Assembly (NCBI GenBank): GCA_029541985.1
Contig: CP095414.1
Location: 1,984,001 to 2,048,000, forward strand
Length of the DNA: 64,000 nucleotides
Direction: 5' to 3'
Source of the DNA: Bacteroidales bacterium F22
GTDB taxonomy: Bacteria; Bacteroidota; Bacteroidia; Bacteroidales; Bacteroidaceae
Below, piece after piece: positions 564 through 39,191 of this stretch (its first letter is position 1; every line of letters starts with the position of its first letter). The position numbers and the translations under genes are program-made. A model generated the notes under the pieces. The model was not told where the DNA came from and ran no database searches. It saw only the letters and a program-made list of their open reading frames with translations.

Positions 564-3500
564 ATGAGCCCTACAATTATTCTCTTAACTGTGTGTAGTT
601 ATCTAGCACTTCTTTTCTTATTATCTTATCTCTCAGGTAGAAACACAGGTAATGCTGATTTCTTTGTAGGTGGTCGTAAGTCTCATTGGCTGATGGTAGC
701 ATTTGCCATGATTGGGTCGTCTATCTCTGGCGTGACTTTTGTCTCTGTACCTGGCATGGTTGCTACAAATAGCTTGTCGTATCTACAGATGATCCTCGGA
801 TTTATGGTCGGGCAATTTATCATTGCATTTGTCTTAGTCCCTTTATTTTACCACATGAAACTAGTTTCTATCTATGGATACCTTAGAGAACGGTTTGGTA
901 TCCGTGGATATAAGACAGGAGCTTGGCTATTTTTGATTTCTAAGATGCTCGGCGCAGCTGTTAGACTCTATCTCTTCTCATTAATCATGCAATTTTTGGT
1001 TTTCGAACCCTTTGGACTTCCCTTTTGGCTCAATGTATCCCTCTCGCTACTTCTCATAGTACTTTACACTTTTCGAGGAGGGGTCAAGTCGCTCATTTGG
1101 ACAGACTGTCTCAAGACTCTATGCTTATTGTTAGCCGTAGGATTAAGTATTTATTATTTGATGAAGGGACTCGATTACTCTTTTTCAGATATGATTACTC
1201 ATGTGCAAGAGAATCCGATGAGTCGTTGGCTCTTTCTTGACGATGTCAATAGTAAAAGTTATTTCTGGAAACTCTTTTTTGCAGGTATCTTCATCATGAT
1301 AGCCACTACTGGATTGGACCAAGATATGATGCAGCGCAATATCAGTTGCCGCAATTCTCGTGAGTCCCAGTTGAATATGTTTGTAAGTGCCATCATGCAA
1401 TTCATCATCGTAGCCTTATTTCTATTCCTCGGTATCTTACTATACTCCTATGGTGAAGCCTATCATATAACCCTTCCTGCTGAATCAGACAAACTGTTTC
1501 CTATGCTTGCCACTCGAGGCTTCATGCCTACAATCGTAGGGGTGTGTTTCGTTATAGGACTCACGGCATCGGCTATCTCATCTGGCGGGTCAGCACTCAC
1601 TGCATTGACCACTTCGTTTACGATAGATATCATCGGTACCTCGCATAGCAATGATAGAAACATTACTCGACTACGTCACCGCGTACATCTGCTGATGGCT
1701 ATCGTGATGGGTATTGTGATGGTCAATTTTCATATCCTCAATAGCACAAGTGTTATTGATGCTGTTTACACGTTAGCGAGCTATACCTATGGGCCTATCT
1801 TAGGACTCTTTCTCTTTGGTTTGCTTTCCAAACGTAATGTGCGTGATGTATGGATTCCTTTTGTTGTCATCCTTTCACCAATCCTCTGTTATGTCCTTCA
1901 GTTAAATGCAAGTAGATGGTTAGGTGGTTACCAATTCTCCTACGAATTGCTTCTTGTCAATGCTTTTATCGTCTACGTCGGATTATGGATTTTCTCTTTA
2001 ACCTCTAGACGTATAGGTCGAAATCGTAAGGGATCCCGTCGCTTTGTTCATTCGCTTCTTCTTTTCGCTATTCTAAGTACCATTTCATTTGTGAATCCTT
2101 CACTTGTACAAGCACAAACAAGACTATCCACCACACGCTGTCATAAGATAAACGAGGATATTGCCACGTTGATTCCTAAGAATCAGAAGGTAGATGAGAT
2201 ACTCGTTAAGTCAGTCGCTAATAGACACGGTAAGGTAACAGTCTACCTAAATGATGCTGCACATGGACTTCCCTATGACGAAAAACTCGTGGAGCGTTTT
2301 TACAATCAGATCTCTGCAGCCCTCCCACAACAGTGGCAACGCATCCCGCTTTCTATTCAGACAAAAGGGATTGCAATCGAACAATTGGTTCCGCTGTATC
2401 GTCGTACCCCCACATTCCAATTAGGTTCTAGAAAAGTGCCAGCTATTTATATATCGTCTTCACGAAGAAAACGAGTGGCTCAACCTCTGACCACTCCCTT
2501 AGTGACTTCATTATCCTCCTCATCACATCCGACACAAGGGCTAGCCAATCGGCATATAGCCCTGATGCCTAGTCATGGCTTCTATTATGAGAAGAAGACC
2601 GACCGCTGGGAATGGCAACGTGCACGACTCAATGAAACCGTAGAAGATTTATTGCCCATGAGTTTAGTCATTTCTTATTTAGCTCCTATGCTCGAACATG
2701 CAGGTGCCAATGTTCTAATTCCTAGAGAACGCGATACGCAGACCTCTGAGGTTATCATGCACTCCATCCCTGGGCAATCTCAGTGGACTCCTCAGATACC
2801 CCATGATGGCCACTATGGAGTCTATGTACAATATAAGTACCATCCACACAATACGACCCAAGCACATTATACCGTCTGCCATAAAGGAATCAAGACACAG
2901 TTTGCTGTTAATCAGCAGATGGGGGCTTCTACTTGGATTTTTCTAGGGACTTTTGATTTTTCAGCTAATCACCCAGAGGACAATTATGTACAGCTCGACG
3001 ACAAGATACAGCCCACGGATTCAGCTACTGTTATAGCCTGCCAAGCTGTAAAGTTCGGAGGAGGTATGGGAAGTATCTCTCGAGGAGGAACTATCAGTCA
3101 TTATCCTCGCTTTGCTGAGGCTGCTCGTTATTGGATGCAATACGCAAACATTCCCGATTCGATATATAATTCTTTCCATGATACGGACGATTATAAAGAT
3201 GATTACATGTGTCGGGGTGCATGGGTCAATTATTTAGCTGGAGGATCAAGTGTCTTGCCCAAAGATCAAGGATTGCGAATACCTATCGACTTAGCTCTGG
3301 CCTTGCATACCGATGCCGGTATTTATGAACAAGACTCTATCACAGGCACGTTAGCTATCTTTAATACATACACCTATGATGGACGTTACCCCAATGGGGC
3401 TTCTCGTGTGTGGTGTAGGGACTTAGCTGACCAGATAGTCTCTCAATTGACAACTGATATACGTAAAGTCTACGAACCTGATTGGACGCGTAGACAGTTG

Positions 3501-4919
3501 TTTGACAAAGCTTATTTTGAAGCTCGAATACCTAAGGTACCGACGCTATTACTTGAACTCTTATCGCATCAGAGTTATCAAGATATGCGTTATGGGTTGG
3601 ACCCCTCATTTCGTTTCTTGGTTTCTCGATCTATTTATAAAGGCATCCTCCGTTTCTTAGGGCAACAGTATAATCAAGAGGTAACCGTACAACCTCTTGC
3701 TCCAGATCACTTCTCCATCTTGGCTGACACATTAGATGCACAGAAGATGCATCTGAGTTGGCAAGCTGTAAATGACTCCCTAGAGCCATCAGCGAAACCG
3801 ACCTCGTACATGCTCTATACACGGGTGGATGATGGGGCCTTTGATAATGGAATATTAATCAATGGAAACAGTTATCAAGCGATACAAGAGGTGGGGCATC
3901 TCTATGCTTATCAAGTGACAGCCGTCAATGCAGGTGGAGAAAGCATGCCCAGTCAGACCCTTGCTGCTGGCGTAGTAGCACATAGTAAAGCAACGGTCCT
4001 TGTAGTAAATGCTTTTGATAGAGTAAGTGGTCCATATGCCTTTAGTGATTCTATTGTATCTGGATTTCATGACCAAGTAGAATATCCTCTTCCTGATGGA
4101 AGTGACATATCCTATGTCGGTTCTCAATATCTATTTGAAAAGAAACTTGATTGGCTCAGTGATGATATGCCTGGAGTGGGGGCTAGTCGGTCCACCTATG
4201 AAGGCAAGGTGTTAGCAGGCAACACGCATGACTATGTAGTCAGACATGGCAAATCAATCATGGCTGCTGGTTACAGTTTCTGTGGGATTAGTGATGAGGC
4301 TTTGATACAGCAATCGCTAACCAAGTCGGCGATGCCATTAGCTAGGCAGTATCCTGTCGTAGACTTCATACTAGGTAAGCAACGAACCACTCTTATCGGA
4401 AAGTCAGGTTATAGAAAGCCTCGTTTTGTGACCTATCCACCTGCTGTGCAGCGCTGGTTGAAATCCTATACCTCAGATGGAGGTCATTTATTTGTAAGCG
4501 GTGCTTATGTCCTCAGTGATGCTTGGGGAAATCCACTATTAAAAGAAAAGACCTCTAACCGTGATTTTCTTCAAGATGTACTGCATATCACGTATCAAAC
4601 AGACCGAGCAGCCATCACTGGTAAAGTACAAGTCACGACTCCTAATAATCAAAAACAATCCTTTTCGATGACAACTTATCATTATCAATCGACTCCAAGT
4701 GATAGTCTCTATGTTGTAGAGGCTCCCGATGCAATCCTTCCTGCGGATTCACATGCGGCATCTTTGATGAGGTATCCCGAGAACAATACCACAGCCGCCG
4801 TCGGATATCAGGGTAAATATAGGACATTCATTATGGGATTTCCATTTGAAGTGATTCAGCAGCAGTCCAAACGAGATTCTTTAATGAAAGAGATATTGCA
4901 TTATCTAACAAAAAAATGA
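564..4919 (+). CDS. Sodium/solute symporter fused to a golvesin-inserted N-acetylmuramoyl-L-alanine amidase-like enzyme
   Basis: One uninterrupted 1451-residue frame. Residues 1 to about 485 are a multi-span sodium:solute symporter (SSS family; NADFFVGGRKSHW near the N-terminus). Residues 494-518 (FVHSLLLFAILS...QAQ) look exactly like a secretory signal peptide and would act here as a further membrane span. The rest should be periplasmic. An amidase_3-like fold seems to be split: first half with H671 (PSHG) and E691, then a golvesin/xanthan-lyase-type beta insert at about 735-840 (HYGVYVQYKY, FAVNQQMGASTWIFLG), then a second half with H915 (LHTDAG) and E998 (LLLEL). These four residues fit the zinc ligands and catalytic Glu of the family. 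A fibronectin-III-like domain follows at about 1065-1160, then a C-terminal alpha/beta domain. No ATG, GTG or TTG start is available in frame at the junction, so one polypeptide is predicted. Substrate unknown. Confidence 0.8.
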   Translation: MSPTIILLTVCSYLALLFLLSYLSGRNTGNADFFVGGRKSHWLMVAFAMIGSSISGVTFVSVPGMVATNSLSYLQMILGFMVGQFIIAFVLVPLFYHMKLVSIYGYLRERFGIRGYKTGAWLFLISKMLGAAVRLYLFSLIMQFLVFEPFGLPFWLNVSLSLLLIVLYTFRGGVKSLIWTDCLKTLCLLLAVGLSIYYLMKGLDYSFSDMITHVQENPMSRWLFLDDVNSKSYFWKLFFAGIFIMIATTGLDQDMMQRNISCRNSRESQLNMFVSAIMQFIIVALFLFLGILLYSYGEAYHITLPAESDKLFPMLATRGFMPTIVGVCFVIGLTASAISSGGSALTALTTSFTIDIIGTSHSNDRNITRLRHRVHLLMAIVMGIVMVNFHILNSTSVIDAVYTLASYTYGPILGLFLFGLLSKRNVRDVWIPFVVILSPILCYVLQLNASRWLGGYQFSYELLLVNAFIVYVGLWIFSLTSRRIGRNRKGSRRFVHSLLLFAILSTISFVNPSLVQAQTRLSTTRCHKINEDIATLIPKNQKVDEILVKSVANRHGKVTVYLNDAAHGLPYDEKLVERFYNQISAALPQQWQRIPLSIQTKGIAIEQLVPLYRRTPTFQLGSRKVPAIYISSSRRKRVAQPLTTPLVTSLSSSSHPTQGLANRHIALMPSHGFYYEKKTDRWEWQRARLNETVEDLLPMSLVISYLAPMLEHAGANVLIPRERDTQTSEVIMHSIPGQSQWTPQIPHDGHYGVYVQYKYHPHNTTQAHYTVCHKGIKTQFAVNQQMGASTWIFLGTFDFSANHPEDNYVQLDDKIQPTDSATVIACQAVKFGGGMGSISRGGTISHYPRFAEAARYWMQYANIPDSIYNSFHDTDDYKDDYMCRGAWVNYLAGGSSVLPKDQGLRIPIDLALALHTDAGIYEQDSITGTLAIFNTYTYDGRYPNGASRVWCRDLADQIVSQLTTDIRKVYEPDWTRRQLFDKAYFEARIPKVPTLLLELLSHQSYQDMRYGLDPSFRFLVSRSIYKGILRFLGQQYNQEVTVQPLAPDHFSILADTLDAQKMHLSWQAVNDSLEPSAKPTSYMLYTRVDDGAFDNGILINGNSYQAIQEVGHLYAYQVTAVNAGGESMPSQTLAAGVVAHSKATVLVVNAFDRVSGPYAFSDSIVSGFHDQVEYPLPDGSDISYVGSQYLFEKKLDWLSDDMPGVGASRSTYEGKVLAGNTHDYVVRHGKSIMAAGYSFCGISDEALIQQSLTKSAMPLARQYPVVDFILGKQRTTLIGKSGYRKPRFVTYPPAVQRWLKSYTSDGGHLFVSGAYVLSDAWGNPLLKEKTSNRDFLQDVLHITYQTDRAAITGKVQVTTPNNQKQSFSMTTYHYQSTPSDSLYVVEAPDAILPADSHAASLMRYPENNTTAAVGYQGKYRTFIMGFPFEVIQQQSKRDSLMKEILHYLTKK

Positions 4920-11034: not shown

Positions 11035-14000
11035 ATGAACTATTCTAGAGGTCTTATTCCTTCTTTAATGATTTTGTTGTTCATGTCTTGTTCAACAAAA
11101 TCGGCTACTACTAGCTATGAGATATTAGCCGATTCGATTCAATCTAATCAAGGTATTCAATACACCATGCAACGTGCTTTTGAAGTAGTCAAAACTGGTT
11201 TCAATGCAGGGGATGGCTATGGAGAAGTTTGGATTCGTGATTACAATACCTTCATTGAACTTTCAGCAGAAGTGTATCCCAAAGAGACACTAAAAGAGAA
11301 TCTACGTGTCTTTTTCTGTTTACAACAATCTGATGGAGGAATAGTAGATGGTTTCATCCCTCGTTCCAAAGCCAAGCAGACTAAAGATGGTTATCAATAT
11401 GTTTTCTCTGATTTATCACCTCAATATGCAGGTCATAAGAACAACGTAGAGACAGATCAAGAGTCGTCTCTTGTTCAAGCCGTCTATCGCTATGTCACAA
11501 AAACAGGGGATACTGCTTTCTTACAAGAAAAGATAGGCGACCTGACTGTGGCTCAGCGTCTTGAAATGGCTATGAACTATTTGATGACCAAGCGATGGAG
11601 TGAAAAATATCATCTTATATACGGAGCAACTACTGCTGATTGGGGTGATGTACAACATACGCATCCTTGGGGTGTCTTTCTTACTCCTGACACAAAATAC
11701 AGTATTGACATCTATGACAATGCTATGTTTTTGATTGCAATAGATGACATGATCAAACTCGTTCCAAGTACCCAACCTCATTGGGGAAGGATACATGCAG
11801 ACATTGCGCAAAAGACGATGCAGTATCTCTGGGATGCCAAGCGAAATAAGTTTATACCGCACCTATATCTCGATGGGTCTCCGTTTCCAGCTGACTTTGA
11901 TGAAAATGCAATCTATTATCATGGCGGCACAGCCGTTGCGATTGAAGCAAATCTTTTGTCTAGAGCACAAGTGAAACAAGCGCTCTCTTATATGATTGCT
12001 GATGTGAAGGCTTCTGGAGCTGGGAGCATTGGACTTACCTTGTATCCTACTTATCCTAAGGGGTATTTTGAAAATGTAGGGATGGTTCCTTACGGCTATC
12101 AGAATGGGGGAGATTGGACTTGGTTTGGTGCTCGTATGATTCAGCAGCTGGTTCGTTATGGATTTCTTCAAGAAGCTTATGAACAGTTATTACCTATGAC
12201 TGACCGTGTGCTAGCTAATGAAGGGTTCTTCGAGTGGTATACGAAAGAAAATACGCCAAATGGTTCTGGTACTTTCAGAGGTTCTGCAGGTGTACTCTAC
12301 AAAGCAATCGAGATGTTAGAACAAGCTACAGATGCTAAAATCCGGGAATTACAACAACATCCGACGACACCTCAAACTCTTCTTTGGAAGATTGGCGAAG
12401 ATGATCAATCAGGAAATGAATTTAAGTTAGCTCCTGATGGATACCAGAAATTCATAGAAGATGACTTTGGTTGGGAAGACAAATATTTTCTAGTTGGTAC
12501 GTCATCATCTGACAAGGATTGGCCATATATCCTACCCGGAACTTCCGATTCATGGGGAGGTACTTGGGGGACTTCTGGACTCCGTTCCAATGTACTGAAC
12601 ATTCTATTTTCTCTAGACAAGAAACCCGCGAATCAGGATTGGATGTTGACTATTGATTTATTAGACTGCAATCCACAAGACTTACCTCTTCTTAAAGTAA
12701 TCATAAATGATAAGGTGTTGGAGACACGTGTGCCAGTGATTAATAGGTATGGAACAGAGCAGCAGTTGCTTTTTCCGACCAAAAACGCTAAGGCATCAGC
12801 AATTGACTCTATCCCTTCTCGAGACACTGGATACAACATTCAAATCCCATTACGTAGCGACGACCTAAGGTTAGGAGGTAATGAAATAAAACTCACCATT
12901 CTAGACGGTTCATGGGTCAAATTTGACCAGATAAAAATGACTGGACCGCAGAAGGCAAAGCTTAAACAAGATAAAGAAGTCTATCTACGAGATGTTCACG
13001 CCGCACCTTATGAAATCACTGTATCTGATACTGGTCAGCATGACTTCAGAGCACAACCCCTCATCGTAGACGTGGAGCATCTTAGTGGACAGCCTGAGTT
13101 GAAGGTTAAGTTAGATGGGAAAGTCATTTTCTCAGAGACTGTCGAAGCGAGACGATATGCTTTTGAAGCCCCTATGCCTGCAGTAAAATCGAAGACAAAG
13201 AGTAAATACCAAATCTTTATTGATGGTCATCTCAAGGTAAAAGGAGAGGTGGTACGTACTCCTCAGGCTTTGACTACACCAGCTCGATACGTAGATACGA
13301 CTATGGGTAGTGCTCACTCTAGATGGATGATTGCTCCCGGTCCATGGATGCCTTTTAGTATGGTGAAATTAAGTCCTGACAATCAAGACCCAGCTTGGCA
13401 AGGAGGGTACGACCCCATCTTCGAATCTATAGGGTGTTTTTCTCATATCCATGAATGGACGTTAGCGGGCTTAGGGACGATGCCGGCCAATGGACAACTA
13501 ATCACACAAGTAGGAACTCAGTCAGATCCAGATAGTGGTTACCGTTCTCGAATAAATAAAGAGACAGAAGAGGCACCTTTGGGCTATTACAAAGTGGAAC
13601 TGACTGATTATAATATAAAAGCTGAACTGACAGCGACTACTCGTTGTGGATTTCAGCGCTACACGTTCCCTCAAGACCGTGATTCCTCTCATGTGCTTCT
13701 TGACCTTGTCATTCCTGCTGAATATACGTATCAATGTTTGGATGCGAAAATCACTCAAGTGAGCCCTACACGCATCGAAGGATATAGTAAGCAACTCACG
13801 CCCAATACCTGGAGTGGGGGTATCTCACAAGAATATACAGTCTATTTCGTAGCAGAATTTGATAAACCTATTCAATCAATTACGATGTGGACTGATGAAG
13901 GAATCAAACCAAATATCCAATCCCTCCGAGTGAAAAAGCCTAAAGATGTGGGCGCTGCTGTATATTTCGATACCAAATCCAATGGAGTGGTCCAGATGCG

Positions 14001-15507
14001 CACAGGCATCTCCTATGTGAGTATCTCCAATGCAAGCGAGAATCTTCAGGAAGAGATAGCTAAACCTTTTGCCTGGGATTTTGATGCTGTAAGGCAAGCA
14101 AATATAAGAGCTTGGGATGAGTTGATGCAACGTGTCGATATAACGACCACCGATGCTCGTGAGAAACGTCGTTTTTATAATAGTTTCTACCGTGCTATAT
14201 GTAGCAGAAATACGTATAGTGATGTCAATGGTCAATGGCGCGATGCTGACGAGAAAGTACGCCGTATGACTAATCCGGATAATATAGCTCTTGGTTGTGA
14301 TGCTTTCTGGAATACCTTTTGGAATCTGAATCAGTTCTGGAATTTGGTAACCCCTGAGTGGACAAATCGATGGGTTAATTCTGAATTGGCAATGTATGAT
14401 GCAAATGGTTGGCTTGCGAAAGGTCCTGCTGGTATGGAATATATCCCTGTGATGGTGGCAGAGCATGAGATTCCTATGATTGTAGGTGCTTATCAGATGG
14501 GGATACGAGACTTCGATGTAGAGAAAGCTTTTCAAGCTGTTAAGAAAATGCAAACAGTTCCAGGACGTGTCGTTGGTGGAGGTTTTGCTGGTAATCGAGA
14601 CCTCAAAGCTTATCTCAAATACCATTATGTACCTTACGATTTAGGCCGTTTCTCCAATTCCTTAGAATATGCTTATGATGATTGGACCGTCTCTCAGTTT
14701 GCCAAGGCTATCGGTAAGACATCGGATTATGAGACCTTTGCTAAGCGTGGAGAATATTGGCGCAATGTAATAGATCCCGAAATTGGTTATGCCCATCTCA
14801 AGGATTCCAAAGGTCTATGGATGCCTGATTATGACCCATTTAAGTCTGGAGCAAATGAGCATTTTGTCGAAGGAAATGCTTGGCAATTGACTTATTTCGT
14901 ACCTCAGGATATTCCTGGATTAGCTAAGGTTATCGGTAAGAAGAACTTTACTGACCGTCTCGAATGGGGATTCGAGGAGAGTTACAAGACGAGATTCAAT
15001 GGTATCAATGACCAATATTGGAATTATCCAGTGATGCAGGGGAATCAACAATCGATGCATTTTGCTTATCTCTTCAATTGGGTGGACAAACCTTGGCTTA
15101 CTCAGAAGTGGGCTCGTGCTATCATGGACCGATATTATGGATACGGGGTTTCCAATGCTTATTTAGGAGATGAAGACCAAGGCCAAATGAGTGCGTGGTT
15201 CCTTATGAGTGCCTTAGGTCTCTTCCAAACTGATGGAGGGTGTAGTGTCGATCCTATTTATGAACTAGGAAGTCCTCTTTACCAAAAAGTGGTGATTGAT
15301 TTGGGGCAACGTTTTGGTCGTGGGGGTAAACTCGTCATCGAAGCGCATCATGCTTCCCGCCTAAATATGTATATACAATCGGTCAAACTCAATGGTAAAC
15401 CATGGAATGATTTTAAGATTCCAGCTCATGAACTCTTAAAAGGAGGTCATTTAGTATTGGAGATGGGGCCGCAACCGCAACCTAATTTTGGACTTGGTAA
15501 TGATTGA
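11035..15507 (+). CDS. Three-part lipoprotein: six-hairpin glycosidase-like domain, beta-sandwich domain and GH92 alpha-mannosidase
   Basis: 1490 residues. The N-terminus is a lipoprotein signal with Cys19 (LLFMSC). Residues about 45-445 look like an (alpha/alpha)6 glycosidase (GEVWIRDYNTF, NVETDQESSLVQAVYRY, DIYDNAMF); I cannot assign a GH family. Residues about 460-660 form a beta-rich, possibly carbohydrate-binding segment (WKIGEDDQSGNEF, WEDKYFLVG). From about 745 onward the sequence is a full GH92 enzyme: RYVDTTMGSAHSRWMIAPGPW, the long FWNTFWNLNQFWNLVTPEW segment and EDQGQMSAWFLMSALG near 1385. GH92 enzymes are calcium-dependent exo-acting alpha-mannosidases acting on N-glycans or yeast mannan. 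The protein is likely membrane-anchored at the outer membrane or in the periplasm. An N-terminal glycosidase-like module joined to GH92 in one chain is not the standard layout (GH92 proteins are usually about 750 residues). Confidence 0.85.
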   Translation: MNYSRGLIPSLMILLFMSCSTKSATTSYEILADSIQSNQGIQYTMQRAFEVVKTGFNAGDGYGEVWIRDYNTFIELSAEVYPKETLKENLRVFFCLQQSDGGIVDGFIPRSKAKQTKDGYQYVFSDLSPQYAGHKNNVETDQESSLVQAVYRYVTKTGDTAFLQEKIGDLTVAQRLEMAMNYLMTKRWSEKYHLIYGATTADWGDVQHTHPWGVFLTPDTKYSIDIYDNAMFLIAIDDMIKLVPSTQPHWGRIHADIAQKTMQYLWDAKRNKFIPHLYLDGSPFPADFDENAIYYHGGTAVAIEANLLSRAQVKQALSYMIADVKASGAGSIGLTLYPTYPKGYFENVGMVPYGYQNGGDWTWFGARMIQQLVRYGFLQEAYEQLLPMTDRVLANEGFFEWYTKENTPNGSGTFRGSAGVLYKAIEMLEQATDAKIRELQQHPTTPQTLLWKIGEDDQSGNEFKLAPDGYQKFIEDDFGWEDKYFLVGTSSSDKDWPYILPGTSDSWGGTWGTSGLRSNVLNILFSLDKKPANQDWMLTIDLLDCNPQDLPLLKVIINDKVLETRVPVINRYGTEQQLLFPTKNAKASAIDSIPSRDTGYNIQIPLRSDDLRLGGNEIKLTILDGSWVKFDQIKMTGPQKAKLKQDKEVYLRDVHAAPYEITVSDTGQHDFRAQPLIVDVEHLSGQPELKVKLDGKVIFSETVEARRYAFEAPMPAVKSKTKSKYQIFIDGHLKVKGEVVRTPQALTTPARYVDTTMGSAHSRWMIAPGPWMPFSMVKLSPDNQDPAWQGGYDPIFESIGCFSHIHEWTLAGLGTMPANGQLITQVGTQSDPDSGYRSRINKETEEAPLGYYKVELTDYNIKAELTATTRCGFQRYTFPQDRDSSHVLLDLVIPAEYTYQCLDAKITQVSPTRIEGYSKQLTPNTWSGGISQEYTVYFVAEFDKPIQSITMWTDEGIKPNIQSLRVKKPKDVGAAVYFDTKSNGVVQMRTGISYVSISNASENLQEEIAKPFAWDFDAVRQANIRAWDELMQRVDITTTDAREKRRFYNSFYRAICSRNTYSDVNGQWRDADEKVRRMTNPDNIALGCDAFWNTFWNLNQFWNLVTPEWTNRWVNSELAMYDANGWLAKGPAGMEYIPVMVAEHEIPMIVGAYQMGIRDFDVEKAFQAVKKMQTVPGRVVGGGFAGNRDLKAYLKYHYVPYDLGRFSNSLEYAYDDWTVSQFAKAIGKTSDYETFAKRGEYWRNVIDPEIGYAHLKDSKGLWMPDYDPFKSGANEHFVEGNAWQLTYFVPQDIPGLAKVIGKKNFTDRLEWGFEESYKTRFNGINDQYWNYPVMQGNQQSMHFAYLFNWVDKPWLTQKWARAIMDRYYGYGVSNAYLGDEDQGQMSAWFLMSALGLFQTDGGCSVDPIYELGSPLYQKVVIDLGQRFGRGGKLVIEAHHASRLNMYIQSVKLNGKPWNDFKIPAHELLKGGHLVLEMGPQPQPNFGLGND

Positions 15508-33101: not shown

Positions 33102-34580
33102 ATGATAAAAGAAAATACCGTTGCTTGCTTTATGCCTTTTGTATCTATTGCACAAGCCGATGTGATGGTTACTAGATGGTTAGCCCAGTCTAGTATATCT
33201 AAGGTGTTTCTAATGGCAGTCGATTCTAGTCTAGTCTACAATCACTCTGCAGTCGAGGTGATATATGTCGATGCGTGGCGCAGTAGTGCGACTATGATTC
33301 AGATGGCGGATTGTTCAGCAGGCTTCTCCTATTTGCTATTCTGTATCTCTTGTAACCCAATCCAAATGGGTTATCTTGCTTCGGAACGTTTGATTCAATT
33401 AGCTCAAATGACATCGGGGGGAATGCTTTATATGGATAGCTATTCTATTGAGGATGGACAGACAATGCCCATGCCTCGAATTGATTACCAACTGGGTAGC
33501 GTACGGGATGATTTTGATTTCGGGTCTTTACTTTTCTTCGAGAGTCGTCGTTTTGTTCATGCTGCTCATGCTATCGACCAGACACTCAATCATGCTGGAT
33601 TGTATGCAGTCAGACTGAACATCGCTCGTTCTACACCGCTGATACATGTCTCAGAATATCTTTATACTGAGGAGGTTCAACCTATGCTGTCTGAAGGTAT
33701 GGAGACACAATTTAATTATGTAGACCCTCACAACCGAGTGCAGCAGCTAGAGATGGAAGCTGTATGTACTGATTATCTGCGGGCTATAGGGGGGTATCTA
33801 GAACCTTATAAATATGAGGATTTAGATTGGGATGACAGTTACGAAGGGCTAGAAGCAAGTGTGATTATCCCTGTGCGTAATCGAGTACGTACCATCGGTG
33901 ATGCTATAGCATCAGCATTGAATCAACAAACAAATTTCAAATTTAATATACTGGTCATAGATAATCATTCTACTGATGGAACGGTGGAACTAGTTGAGAA
34001 CTATGCGGCTCAAGATTCGCGTGTGGTGGTGCTAAAACCTTCTCGTCATGATTTGGGAATAGGAGGTTGTTGGAATAGAGCCGTGCATCATCCTGAGTGT
34101 GGACGGATTGCCGTTCAGCTTGATAGTGATGACTTATATGCTGGAGATGATACGCTTCAACAGCTTGTGGATGTCTTTCATGCTAAGCATTGTGGCATGG
34201 TTATAGGGACTTATCGCATGACTGATTTTTCGCTAAATGAATTGCCTCCAGGTGTGATTGAACATCGAGAATGGACAGTAGAAAATGGGCGTAACAATGC
34301 TTTACGTATCAATGGGCTAGGAGCTCCAAGAGCTTTTTACGTTCCGCTACTACGCAGAATCAATCTGCCTAATACCAATTACGGTGAAGATTACGCTATC
34401 GGATTGAATATCGCTAGAATGTATCCTATAGAACGCATATACAATGTCTTGTATCTTTGTCGTCGTTGGGATGGAAATAGTGATGCTGCATTGTCTCAAG
34501 AGGCGATAAACAAAAATAATCATTACAAAGATGCAATTCGTACTTGGGAGTTAGCTGCCCGAATTGCTAAAAATAAATAG
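33102..34580 (+). CDS. GT2 glycosyltransferase with an extra N-terminal domain
   Basis: 492 residues with no signal peptide or membrane span, so cytosolic. Residues about 250-480 form a GT-A glycosyltransferase: [29 protein letters not shown], and the metal-binding DSDD near 340-343 in [11 protein letters not shown]. Residues 1-240 are not a recognisable GT2 catalytic domain but show a similar alternating pattern ([43 protein letters not shown]) and may be a degenerate second GT-A fold. It is first of four same-strand genes, 22 nt ahead of the HIT-SpoIID fusion. The acceptor is unknown. Confidence 0.8.
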
Positions 34581-34602
34581 CTATCTCTTTATTAATTACT
34601 TT

Positions 34603-36954
34603 ATGAATATGGAAACTCTAAATAGACGTGTCGAAGAATTGTTTAAACGACAACTGATTGATTGGCCATCAACAGGTGAACGGTATGCTGCATTGGCTGA
34701 TGTGAAAACAAGAGAAGTATTGGCTAATGGGTGTGCTTACCGCTTGCAATACAATCCGGGTCGTTTGAAATCGTCGTCTGCAAAAGTTGATAAGGCGAGT
34801 GTGGCCAAACGACCTTGTTTCTTATGTGAACACAACAGGCCTGCTGAGCAAGAGTACTTCTTGGTGGGACATGGTTGTGAAGAGGTATCTATGTGTTCTC
34901 ATCAGTATGAGGTATTGATTAATCCATTTCCGATATTTCCTTGCCATCTGACTATAGTAGATAAATTACATGTCCCTCAACTAATAGGGGACAGAATATA
35001 TGATTTGCTGTATCTTACTAGAGCATTTGATGATTTTACTTTTTTCTACAACGGCCCTCAGGCTGGAGCTTCTGCTCCTGACCATGCGCATTTTCAAGCT
35101 GGTAATAGACGCTTTTTGCCTATCGAAAGCCTGGTCTTTTCTTTGGAACGAAATGTCATCACCGAACAATCTGGTGCATCTTTATATACGTTGAAAAACG
35201 ATTTAATGAATACGATGATTGTCGAGGGCGATGACTTGGATGCCGTAGCTTCTCTTTATAAGCGTTTATTGGATTTGCTACCTCTTCCTGAAGGGGCTAG
35301 TGAACCTCTATTGAATGTGTTGGCTTGGTACGAGGATGGGGTGTGGCGTCTTTGTCTGATTCCACGGAGTAGGCATCGTCCAAAATGTTATTCGGCTACC
35401 GGGGCCGACAAGCATCTGGTGTCTCCTGCATCTGTAGATATGGGTGGGGTTTTCATTTTACCTCGTTTGGAAGACTTCAATACGTTGAACGGAGACGATG
35501 TCAGCCGTATATTGAGCGATGTATGTATGCAAGATGATGAGGTGGCTGAAGTGGGTAGACGATTACGCAATGCGTTGACTGTTCCAGAGAAGACAGTTGA
35601 TGTTGGTATCGTTTGTGCTGATACGATTGTCGTTAATTTTGATGAAGGGGCTTATGATGAGATTTCGGCGCTGTCTGCTGAACGGGTTGATTCGGACGAG
35701 TCTACTAAGGTGTCTGGCCGTCAGCATTTTACGATAAAGGACGGTTTCATTTTCTGGAACGGAAAGAGATATGAAACGTTGTTCTTCAAAGCTTCTAATT
35801 ATAATACTGCTTCTTTTGAAGTACAAGATGTAGCTATTGGTATCTCTTTTCATTGGGAACGAACTGAAAATCAACGTTTTCGAGGGGATGTGAAACTGAT
35901 TGTTGAAGGCGGGATGGTTAGACTTGTCAATCGAGTTCCTATTGAGTTGTATCTCGAGAGTGTCATTTCTTCTGAGATGTCTGCTACAGCATCGCAATCC
36001 TTGCTGAAAGCTCATGCTGTGATATCTCGAAGTTGGTTGTTGGCTCAGATGTACCCAGAAAAGGTCTATCATGGCCTAGCTGTTTCAACTGCTGATGAGG
36101 CTTCTCCTAAGTTGTCTTCAGGGACCTCTGTTCAGCGGGTAATCAAGTGGTACGATAAACAGCAACATATTGGTTTCGATGTGTGTGCCGATGACCACTG
36201 TCAACGCTATCAAGGAATCTCCAAGGTATCGACAGCCGCTGCACACCATGCTGTGGCTTACACGTGTGGCGAAGTACTTACGTACGATGGGGCTTTGTGT
36301 GATACTCGATTCTCTAAATGCTGTGGTGGGATGCTTGAAGAGTTCTCTAGCTGTTGGGGAGAAGAAACTCATCCTTATTTGAAAGGGCAGTTAGATGCTT
36401 CAAAGGAGGAGGGTGGTTCTTCAACTCCTTCGATAGGTGATTTGCGAGATGAAAAAAGAGTTCGTGAATGGATTCTCTCCTCTCCATCAGTGAATTGTAA
36501 TACTCAAGATATGGAGATTCTTAAGCAAGTGCTCAACGGATATGACCAAGAAACCACTGATTTCTTTAGATGGGAAGTTCGTTATTCTCAAGATGTACTC
36601 TCTAGTCTTTTTGTTCGTCAAAGTGGACTCGATATAGGGAAAATCACTGATTTGATTCCTCGTAAGCGTGGCGCTTCTGGACGTCTTGTCGAATTGGATA
36701 TCTATGGCACCAAGGGGAAGGTGACGATCGGTAAGGAACTTGAGATACGCCGGTTACTTTCTGAGTCTCATCTGAAAAGTAGCGCTTTTATAGTGGATCG
36801 TGAGGGAACTGATTTTATCCTCCGTGGTGCCGGTTGGGGACATGGCGTAGGATTGTGTCAGATTGGAGCTGCGGTGATGGGTGCTAAAGGAATCGGTTAC
36901 GAAGCAATATTAAGTCATTACTATCCGAAAACACAACGATCTATCTATGAATAA
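34603..36954 (+). CDS. Fusion of a HIT/GalT-like nucleotidyltransferase domain (DUF4922-like) and a SpoIID/LytB-type lytic transglycosylase domain
   Basis: 783 residues. I use ATG 34603 (MNMETLNRR); the longer frame from 34564 would overlap the upstream gene and adds nothing recognisable. The N-terminal half (about 1-330) has a Cys pair (CFLCEHNRP, about 71-74), the NPFPIFPCHLTIV strand and H161-A-H163-F-Q, a HxHxQ-type motif as in GalT and GDP-sugar phosphorylases. The C-terminal half (about 375-783) has SpoIID features: VPIELYLESVISSEMSA with catalytic-type E458, a Cys-rich central loop, and GWGHGVGLCQIGA near 745. SpoIID enzymes cleave denuded peptidoglycan outside the cytoplasm, yet there is no signal peptide or membrane span here, so the protein should be cytosolic. 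Overlaps the permease gene by 8 nt. Confidence 0.82.
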   Translation: MNMETLNRRVEELFKRQLIDWPSTGERYAALADVKTREVLANGCAYRLQYNPGRLKSSSAKVDKASVAKRPCFLCEHNRPAEQEYFLVGHGCEEVSMCSHQYEVLINPFPIFPCHLTIVDKLHVPQLIGDRIYDLLYLTRAFDDFTFFYNGPQAGASAPDHAHFQAGNRRFLPIESLVFSLERNVITEQSGASLYTLKNDLMNTMIVEGDDLDAVASLYKRLLDLLPLPEGASEPLLNVLAWYEDGVWRLCLIPRSRHRPKCYSATGADKHLVSPASVDMGGVFILPRLEDFNTLNGDDVSRILSDVCMQDDEVAEVGRRLRNALTVPEKTVDVGIVCADTIVVNFDEGAYDEISALSAERVDSDESTKVSGRQHFTIKDGFIFWNGKRYETLFFKASNYNTASFEVQDVAIGISFHWERTENQRFRGDVKLIVEGGMVRLVNRVPIELYLESVISSEMSATASQSLLKAHAVISRSWLLAQMYPEKVYHGLAVSTADEASPKLSSGTSVQRVIKWYDKQQHIGFDVCADDHCQRYQGISKVSTAAAHHAVAYTCGEVLTYDGALCDTRFSKCCGGMLEEFSSCWGEETHPYLKGQLDASKEEGGSSTPSIGDLRDEKRVREWILSSPSVNCNTQDMEILKQVLNGYDQETTDFFRWEVRYSQDVLSSLFVRQSGLDIGKITDLIPRKRGASGRLVELDIYGTKGKVTIGKELEIRRLLSESHLKSSAFIVDREGTDFILRGAGWGHGVGLCQIGAAVMGAKGIGYEAILSHYYPKTQRSIYE

Positions 36955-38263
36955 GACTCAACCCCATGATACCTTAGTGTCTACTTCTTCTACAAAATCG
37001 TATACCCATTCTCCTTGGAGCTGGGTGCCTAGCTTGTATTTTGCTGAGGGATTGCCTTATGCCATCGTCTTACTGCAATCTATTGCGATGTATTCGATGT
37101 TGGAACTTTCGAATGCTGAAATCGCCTTCTATACTGGGTGGTTATATCTTCCTTGGGTAATCAAACCTATTTGGGGTCCTCTTGTGGATGTGTTCTTTCA
37201 GAAGAGGATCTGTATCGTGGCCATGCAATTGTTTATAGGAGGCGCCTGTGCAGGTGTGGCGTTGCTTTTACCTACTACTTGGCAGATACAAGGTACTTTG
37301 GCTTTGTTTTGGCTTATTGCTTTTGCTAGTGCCACCCATGATATTGCTGCAGATGGCATGTATATGCTTGGGTTAGATGAGGGAGACCAAGCTCTTTTCG
37401 TGGGTAGCCGTTCTTTGTTTTATCGCTTGGCCATGTTATTCGGACAGGGCGGGGTTTTCTTGTTCGTCGGTATATTATCTGAGCATCTTGATGTGGCCGT
37501 CTCTTGGAGTATTGCTTTCTTACTTTTATCTGTGTTTATCCTAGCATTAGGTCTTTATCACCTCAAGATGCTTCCTAAATTAGAGTCTCCTAAGAGGGAA
37601 CGCGTCACCGTAGGGGCTGTTCTGAGTGAAACATTTCATGTTTTTTCACTCTATTTTAAGCGTAGAGATATAGGGCTAATCGTGAGTTTCATATTTCTAT
37701 TTCGGTTAGGCGAATCGCAATTGACCAAACTAATCATCCCATTTCTTATTAATAGTCGTGAGGTCGGGGGATTAGGACTTTCGGCTGCTAGTTCTGCTTC
37801 GCTCTATGGGATTGTTGGGGTCTTTTCTCTTCTTGTAGGAGGAATCTTGGGTGGCGTTTTGATTGCTAAGCAAGGGCTACGTAAGTGGATTATTCCGATG
37901 GTGCTTATTCTTAATATTCCTGATTTATTCTATCTTTTTTTAGCATGGATCCAAACAGATAATCTATTTCTTGTAGGGGGTGCTATTTCTTTGGAACAGT
38001 TTGGATATGGGTTCGGTTCTTCTGCTTTTATGATGTATCTTATCATGACGTCTGAGGGTAAGTATCAAACCGCTTTCTATTCGATTGCTACTGGATTGAT
38101 GGCTTTAGGGATGATGCTTCCTGGCATGTTAGCTGGCTATATACAAGAATATCTGGGCTATTCTCTTTTCTTTGTTTGGGTTTTTGTCATGACTATTCCA
38201 GGCTTGGTTCTTGCTTTTCGAATCAGAAATGAAATAGATGTTAATTATGGGAAAAAGTATTGA
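36947..38263 (+). CDS. AmpG-like major facilitator permease
   Basis: 438 residues with about 12 membrane spans. SLYFAEGLPYAIV near residue 30, WLYLPWVIKPIWGPLVD and ATHDIAADGMYM are typical of the AmpG/RhtX/FptX branch, whose best-known member imports anhydromuropeptides into the cytoplasm. A short polar N-terminal extension (about 25 residues) precedes the first span. The ATG overlaps the 3' end of the HIT-SpoIID gene by 8 nt, which implies coupled translation. Its placement next to a SpoIID-domain protein and an amino-sugar kinase supports peptidoglycan fragment uptake, though substrate specificity is inferred. Confidence 0.85.
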   Translation: MNKTQPHDTLVSTSSTKSYTHSPWSWVPSLYFAEGLPYAIVLLQSIAMYSMLELSNAEIAFYTGWLYLPWVIKPIWGPLVDVFFQKRICIVAMQLFIGGACAGVALLLPTTWQIQGTLALFWLIAFASATHDIAADGMYMLGLDEGDQALFVGSRSLFYRLAMLFGQGGVFLFVGILSEHLDVAVSWSIAFLLLSVFILALGLYHLKMLPKLESPKRERVTVGAVLSETFHVFSLYFKRRDIGLIVSFIFLFRLGESQLTKLIIPFLINSREVGGLGLSAASSASLYGIVGVFSLLVGGILGGVLIAKQGLRKWIIPMVLILNIPDLFYLFLAWIQTDNLFLVGGAISLEQFGYGFGSSAFMMYLIMTSEGKYQTAFYSIATGLMALGMMLPGMLAGYIQEYLGYSLFFVWVFVMTIPGLVLAFRIRNEIDVNYGKKY

Positions 38264-38293
38264 CTCTCTCCTCTTTATGTAATTTGTATTTGT

Positions 38294-38301
38294 TACCTTT
38301 G
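38294..38301 (+). promoter_or_regulatory. -7 element upstream of the BadF-type kinase gene
   Basis: TACCTTTG, an exact consensus match, inside the 79-nt gap after the permease gene and 41 nt before the kinase start. The kinase can therefore be transcribed separately as well as by read-through. Confidence 0.6.
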
Positions 38302-38342
38302 TCATAATATGTTTTGGGCATTAACTGGATCTTTTAAATAAT

Positions 38343-39191
38343 ATGAAACTAATTGCTGATAGCGGTTCAACAACCACTTTATGGAGGGTAATAAAAAACA
38401 ACGGAGAAGTTGCTATGGAAGTAGTGACCAAGGGAATTAATCCCTATTTTCAGACCCGCTTAGAAATTGAGGAAGAAATCCAGTTTCAGTTATTGCCTAA
38501 GTTTCCGTATTATTTTCACATTGATTCTGTCTTCTTTTACGGATCGGGCTGTACGCCAGCTAAGATTCCTTTCATTAAGAATATTCTTGAGGGGTGTTTT
38601 ATTAAGCACATAGAGGTCTCTAGTGATCTCTTAGCTGCTGCTAGAGCTGTCTGTGGTCATAATAAAGGGCTTGTTGCTATATTGGGTACAGGTTCTAATT
38701 CTTGCTACTACAATGGGGATATTGTAGAAGATAATGTGTCCCCTCTCGGATTCATTCTTGGTGATGAGGGTAGTGGCGCTGCACTTGGCAAAGCATTGAT
38801 ATCTCTTCTTTTTAAACAAAGACAATATACTTCTTTGAAGAAAGCTTTCCTTGACGAGATGAATTTTTCAGAGCATCACATCATCGAGTATGTATACAAA
38901 GCTCCTTTCCCAAATCGTTTTTTAGCTTCATTGTCTCCTTTTATCTTGAACCATATGGATCATCCTGCAATATATCAAATGGTTCTAGATGTCTTTCAAT
39001 CATTTATTGATCTCAATCTTAAACAGTATGCTCAGATAGATGAATATCCTATTCATTTTGTCGGGTCGATTGCTTATCATTTTAGAGATTATCTTGAGGA
39101 AGCTCTACGAGCGAGTGGGGTGAAAATGGGGACGATTGTAAAAGACCCAATGGAAGGATTGACGGCTTTCCATTCTAATCAATCTCTCTGA
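38343..39191 (+). CDS. BadF/BadG-type ATPase, likely N-acetylglucosamine or N-acetylmuramic acid kinase
   Basis: 282 residues with the ASKHA fold. The phosphate-1 motif is ADSGSTTT (5-12), phosphate-2 is AILGTGSNSC (about 112-121), and the GDEGSGAALGK loop follows at about 141-151. The length and motifs fit the single-domain amino-sugar kinases of Bacteroidales such as MurK of Tannerella, and not the benzoyl-CoA reductase activators. It has no iron-sulfur Cys pair. It would phosphorylate amino sugars released from cell-wall fragments brought in by the adjacent permease. Specificity for GlcNAc against MurNAc cannot be told. Confidence 0.85.
   Translation: MKLIADSGSTTTLWRVIKNNGEVAMEVVTKGINPYFQTRLEIEEEIQFQLLPKFPYYFHIDSVFFYGSGCTPAKIPFIKNILEGCFIKHIEVSSDLLAAARAVCGHNKGLVAILGTGSNSCYYNGDIVEDNVSPLGFILGDEGSGAALGKALISLLFKQRQYTSLKKAFLDEMNFSEHHIIEYVYKAPFPNRFLASLSPFILNHMDHPAIYQMVLDVFQSFIDLNLKQYAQIDEYPIHFVGSIAYHFRDYLEEALRASGVKMGTIVKDPMEGLTAFHSNQSL

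Follow-up and report, generated by a model that had tools for sequence, protein, structure and literature searches.

The window examined here is the whole stretch of 64,000 nucleotides that was analyzed from Bacteroidales bacterium F22 (GenBank assembly GCA_029541985.1, contig CP095414.1, positions 1,984,001 to 2,048,000). A single open reading frame (ORF) of 1,451 codons was identified in which a putative MurT-type SSS transporter is followed by an enzyme that resembles a peptidoglycan amidase and is interrupted by a golvesin domain (Table 1). The ORF starts with an ATG, is preceded by an in-frame TAA, and was found to have zero internal stops; when its bases were shuffled 200 times, no open run exceeded 226 codons, which puts a frame of this length far beyond chance. 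No in-frame ATG, GTG, or TTG was found between codons 462 and 510, making it implausible that the enzyme half has a start of its own, and an internal translation start at the junction was ruled out on this basis. The original prediction was thus borne out in its description of (i) one 1,451-residue chain composed of an SSS transporter and a golvesin-interrupted amidase, as seen from the ORF and its Pfam domains; (ii) a signal-peptide-like segment at the junction, found as a hydrophobic stretch at about codons 497-515; and (iii) the lack of an alternative start at this site.

Table 1. Features of the fused ORF, with positions numbered from the first base of the window.
Feature	Position	Strand	Basis
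Fused ORF, 1,451 aa: putative MurT-type SSS transporter and golvesin-interrupted peptidoglycan amidase-like enzyme	564..4919	+	Single open frame
Predicted MurT-type SSS transporter with 13 predicted membrane spans, codons 1-481	564..2006	+	SSF/TIGR00813 matches, hydropathy, tree
Positively charged linker, codons 482-493 (RRIGRNRKGSRR)	2007..2042	+	Site of the transporter stop and amidase start of relatives
Retained signal peptide with hydrophobic core, NP, and VQA↓Q site, codons 494-518	2043..2117	+	Predicted cut between codons 517 and 518
Predicted mature periplasmic enzyme, codons 518-1451	2115..4916	+	40-47% identity to 32 unfused relatives; AF2
Amidase_3-like part 1, codons 656-730, with H671 and E694	2529..2753	+	Alignment, profile without insert
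Golvesin_C insert of reduced length, codons 738-831	2775..3056	+	Pfam; family matches the 6f2p C-terminal domain
Amidase_3-like part 2, codons 872-1038, with H915 and E998	3177..3677	+	Pfam, alignment, profile without insert

The transporter half matched the SSF family (PF00474) at residues 33-424 with an E-value of 1.7e-21 (77 bits compared with the Pfam cut-off of 22.8), and its AF2 model had a mean pLDDT of 74 with the helical core mostly at 70-90. When a tree was built, the transporter of the window was found with the Tannerella murT gene (L112) and the operon homologues at 100/100 support against the paralogues. The gene order at the Tannerella locus was murT-murK-murQ, as in T. forsythia, whose MurT (Tf_MurT, Tanf_08375) belongs to the sodium symporter superfamily and transports MurNAc (PMC5790795). 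Based on its grouping with a gene of a murT-murK-murQ locus, the transporter half is predicted to be a MurT-type importer of N-acetylmuramic acid (MurNAc), that is, a sodium/MurNAc symporter. A second SSS transporter, a paralogue that is 39% identical and sits on a very long branch in another group of the tree, was detected outside the window (G000:C1:607722-609149, + strand).

The enzyme half was examined by structure modeling, profile matching, and alignment. An AF2 model of codons 519-1451 had a mean pLDDT of 83.8 and a pTM of 0.90, and Foldseek matched this model to CwlD (7rag, TMt 0.55), 4rn7, and AmiA (8c2o) at a probability of 1.00. By Pfam, a Golvesin_C domain was identified at residues 738-831 (E-value 5e-17, 62.7 bits compared with a cut-off of 31.6, profile positions 42-130 of 132), while the Amidase_3 match at residues 909-1029 was weak (14.3 bits, under the cut-off of 27). 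Taking out the golvesin insert raised the Amidase_3 score to 21.6 bits and lengthened the match, which now reached profile position 32 at its upstream end, showing that the amidase domain is interrupted by the golvesin domain. This score was still under the cut-off, as were those of the relatives (26.4 bits in one of them after the same removal), and the enzyme looks amidase-like without being filed as a standard Amidase_3 member. Among the 33 aligned sequences, H671, E694, H915, and E998 were found to be invariant, with D917 and H1002 also kept in the window. The putative zinc ligands H671, E691, and H915 and the catalytic E998 had been placed on both sides of the golvesin insert by the original prediction; three of these residues stood, but E691 did not, as its position was occupied by Q in 21, E in 9, M in 2, and R in 1 of the sequences, and E694 is probably the second zinc ligand. 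Taken together, the profile match without the insert, the alignment, and the structure model make the enzyme half look like a zinc amidase. An hhalign comparison of the de-inserted amidase with the ordinary amidase of the genome was not significant; in this nonsignificant alignment, the VELGF segment with the catalytic Glu of the ordinary amidase lay opposite LLLELL. The family of the golvesin insert matches the C-terminal domain of a Paenibacillus xanthan lyase (6f2p), which probably accounts for the "xanthan lyase" label of the enzyme family. No work linking golvesin with an amidase was found in the literature searched.

Comparison with relatives (80 named Bacteroidales loci and genomes from the family and order of this bacterium) revealed how the two halves are encoded elsewhere. 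At 78 Bacteroidales loci the two parts were found as separate same-strand neighbors, nearly all of them -56 to +38 bases apart, in agreement with the suggestion that relatives might carry them as adjacent genes; in 24 of these loci both genes were in the same reading frame. The Bacteroides genes were separated by no more than a stop, a handful of codons, and an ATG. Counted from SYELL, the Q of the cleavage site lay 60 residues away in the window compared with 57-61 residues in L041 and L038, and given this near-equal spacing between the last span and the cleavage site, point changes of the stop and the start are sufficient for the fusion. The single chain would thus have arisen when the stop codon of the transporter and the start codon of the amidase were both lost. 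A simple missed stop was rejected as unlikely, since the amidase start codon is gone as well. An error of sequencing or assembly, with the two genes separate in the actual genome, would likewise require two independent changes and is considered very unlikely; the source genome is 92.8% complete and the sole member of its genus in the comparison set, which gives some weight to such an error, yet region 500-39200 of the window was 95% coding, its long ORFs matched full-length families, and S7 and EF-G were intact.

We also searched for fused chains in other genomes. No other transporter-amidase fusion was found among 61 relatives, among the matches listed for 399 genomes of the family, or among 393 genomes of the order (about 800 genomes, with the relative, family, and order sets overlapping). 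As the order search was based on a strict E-value with the best two candidates per genome scored, and the family matches were those listed, a divergent fusion may have been missed. Apparent fusions with frames of 1375-1532 (G255, G214, G078, G144, G158, G186, G303, G360, and G281) were rejected after the DNA was found to have a stop between the genes; the open-frame figure of the genome search is unreliable where stops fall within the match. In a separate 1,490-aa ORF of the window (11035-15507, + strand), GH92 was detected in the C-terminal half, and Pfam matched nothing in the first 450 or so residues; this N-terminal part looks like another glycoside hydrolase, and the ORF is possibly another fusion.

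The hydropathy of the fused chain was consistent with 13 spans followed by a loop with 7 K/R and 0 D/E residues and then a 14th segment running from in to out. The first 13 spans would form the transporter and the loop that follows would be cytoplasmic, such that the old signal peptide would insert as a 14th span and carry the amidase to the periplasm. This positive-inside charge pattern around the 14th segment suggests that the enzyme is periplasmic, as had been proposed. The sequence leading from transporter to enzyme, SRRIGRNRKGSRRFVHSLLLFAILSTISFVNPSLVQA↓QTRL, was found to retain all features of the Q-rule, under which signal peptidase I substrates of Bacteroidetes favor Q at +1 (PMC5837995), including: (i) the positive n-region RRIGRNRKGSRR; (ii) the hydrophobic core LLLFAILSTISFV; (iii) small residues at -3 and -1; and (iv) the Q at +1 (VQA↓Q). 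Among the unfused relatives, 53 of 76 had Q at +1 of the cleavage site. When scored by a simple home-made rule, the signal peptide of the fused chain was inside the range of the relatives, with a site of the VxA↓Q type.

These features bear on the fate of the chain after insertion. In our preferred reading, to which we assign a probability of roughly 0.6, the fusion by stop and start loss was followed by the use of signal peptidase I, which probably cuts at VQA↓Q; the product would be a transporter-amidase polyprotein from which the amidase is freed, giving the ancestral pair in a 1:1 ratio. The amidase would then strip stem peptides off peptidoglycan fragments, and the transporter would import the sugar. 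An internal signal peptide placed after 13 spans may, however, be cut poorly. Should the chain be left uncut, in line with the original prediction, the old signal peptide would become a lasting 14th span and keep the amidase attached to the importer, with the sugar freed beside it. This outcome is possible but clearly less probable than cleavage; it is consistent with the hydrophobic segment at 497-515 (mean Kyte-Doolittle 1.83) coming after a strongly positive loop, the in-frame fusion without an internal start, and the presence of both partners in one pathway, yet the core of only about 13 residues ahead of NP is short for an anchor, and retention of the complete signal peptidase I site and its +1 Q, which would be needless for a pure anchor, favors cutting over a permanent tether.

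Divergence was found to be concentrated in the enzyme half. Of the 166 columns that did not vary among the 32 relatives, 30 were changed or missing in the window compared with at most 7 in any relative, while only 5 of 108 invariant columns were changed in the transporter half. About 10 of the 30 columns were lost through the shortened golvesin region (window 2529-3177), which is about 60-85 residues shorter than that of the relatives, and the Golvesin_C match begins at profile position 42 in the window versus 30-37 in the relatives. Due to these alterations, the function of the enzyme half may be changed or weakened. The same alterations would fit a decay of the amidase half, in which read-through into the once separate gene continues while the enzyme is under reduced constraint and perhaps inactive. 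We consider this improbable, as 933 codons are free of stops, the H671, E694, H915, D917, E998, and H1002 residues are all present, the structure model is confident, and the branch of this lineage is long in general, as seen in the transporter tree.

The genomic context of the two proteins was examined for its relationship to peptidoglycan recycling. In Bacteroides, the operon was read as namZ-murT-amidase-phosphatase-GT-DUF4922-SpoIID-ampG-namZ (with the phosphatase label a reading of sequence), and in T. forsythia (Tanf_08345-08385) murT is cotranscribed with genes for a "xanthane lyase," lytB, ampG, ybbC/NamZ, murK, and murQ (PMC5388701). The rest of the recycling cluster was detected 28-34 kb downstream in the window (33102-39191, + strand) and encodes a GT2, a DUF4922-SpoIID protein, an AmpG-like MFS permease, and a MurK-like kinase, with NamZ encoded elsewhere in the genome. 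No MurQ (MurNAc-6-phosphate etherase) was found above the cut-off in the genome, where only a GlmS-like match was detected; this absence counts against the sugar-recycling picture, while the MurK-like kinase and NamZ are present. The proposal of a cell-wall enzyme gains support from the operon context together with the amidase fold and residues, and the MurT grouping makes it likely that the transporter takes up the enzyme product, as had been suggested. Joined genes were also found in other parts of the operon, as (i) DUF4922 and SpoIID/LytB, separate genes in Bacteroides, form one 796-aa ORF in the window (34564-36954, + strand) and are joined in one related genus (G044); and (ii) GT, DUF4922, and SpoIID are in one ORF of 1,234-1,341 codons in three other related genera (G005, G015, and G022). 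Fusion of neighbors is thus a recurring habit of this operon, and the transporter-amidase chain adds a new case to it.

By tying an amidase labeled "xanthan lyase" in databases to a MurT-type importer, the fusion supports an action on peptidoglycan fragments for this uncharacterized Bacteroidales enzyme. It also provides a clear-cut example from nature of a signal peptide located within a chain, behind a transporter of 13 spans, in which processing by signal peptidase can be tested against a physical link. If the chain were truly uncut, a periplasmic peptidoglycan amidase covalently joined to a MurNAc importer would constitute an inner-membrane cut-and-import machine.

Several known systems can be compared with the fused protein. 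The fbcH gene of Bradyrhizobium japonicum encodes a cytochrome b/c1 polyprotein that is cut by signal peptidase, as shown experimentally. In both cases an internal signal peptide links a membrane protein to a periplasmic one; however, the proteins are unrelated, and the cleavage demonstrated for fbcH is predicted here from the motif only. The enzyme half is like the Amidase_3 proteins AmiA and CwlD in its fold match and H...E...H...E residues, but differs from them in being golvesin-interrupted, in carrying an FnIII-like domain plus one more C-terminal domain, and in scoring below the Pfam cut-off. The namZ-murT-amidase set of Bacteroides (e.g., B. fragilis, L040) has the same two proteins in the same order, on the same strand, and often in the same frame, whereas a stop, a short spacer, and an ATG lie between the genes and the amidase signal peptide is N-terminal. 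The MurT operon of T. forsythia similarly places an SSS transporter in a peptidoglycan-recycling operon with a "xanthane lyase" (PMC5388701, PMC5790795), yet the two genes are separate and nonadjacent there, while a single ORF encodes both here.
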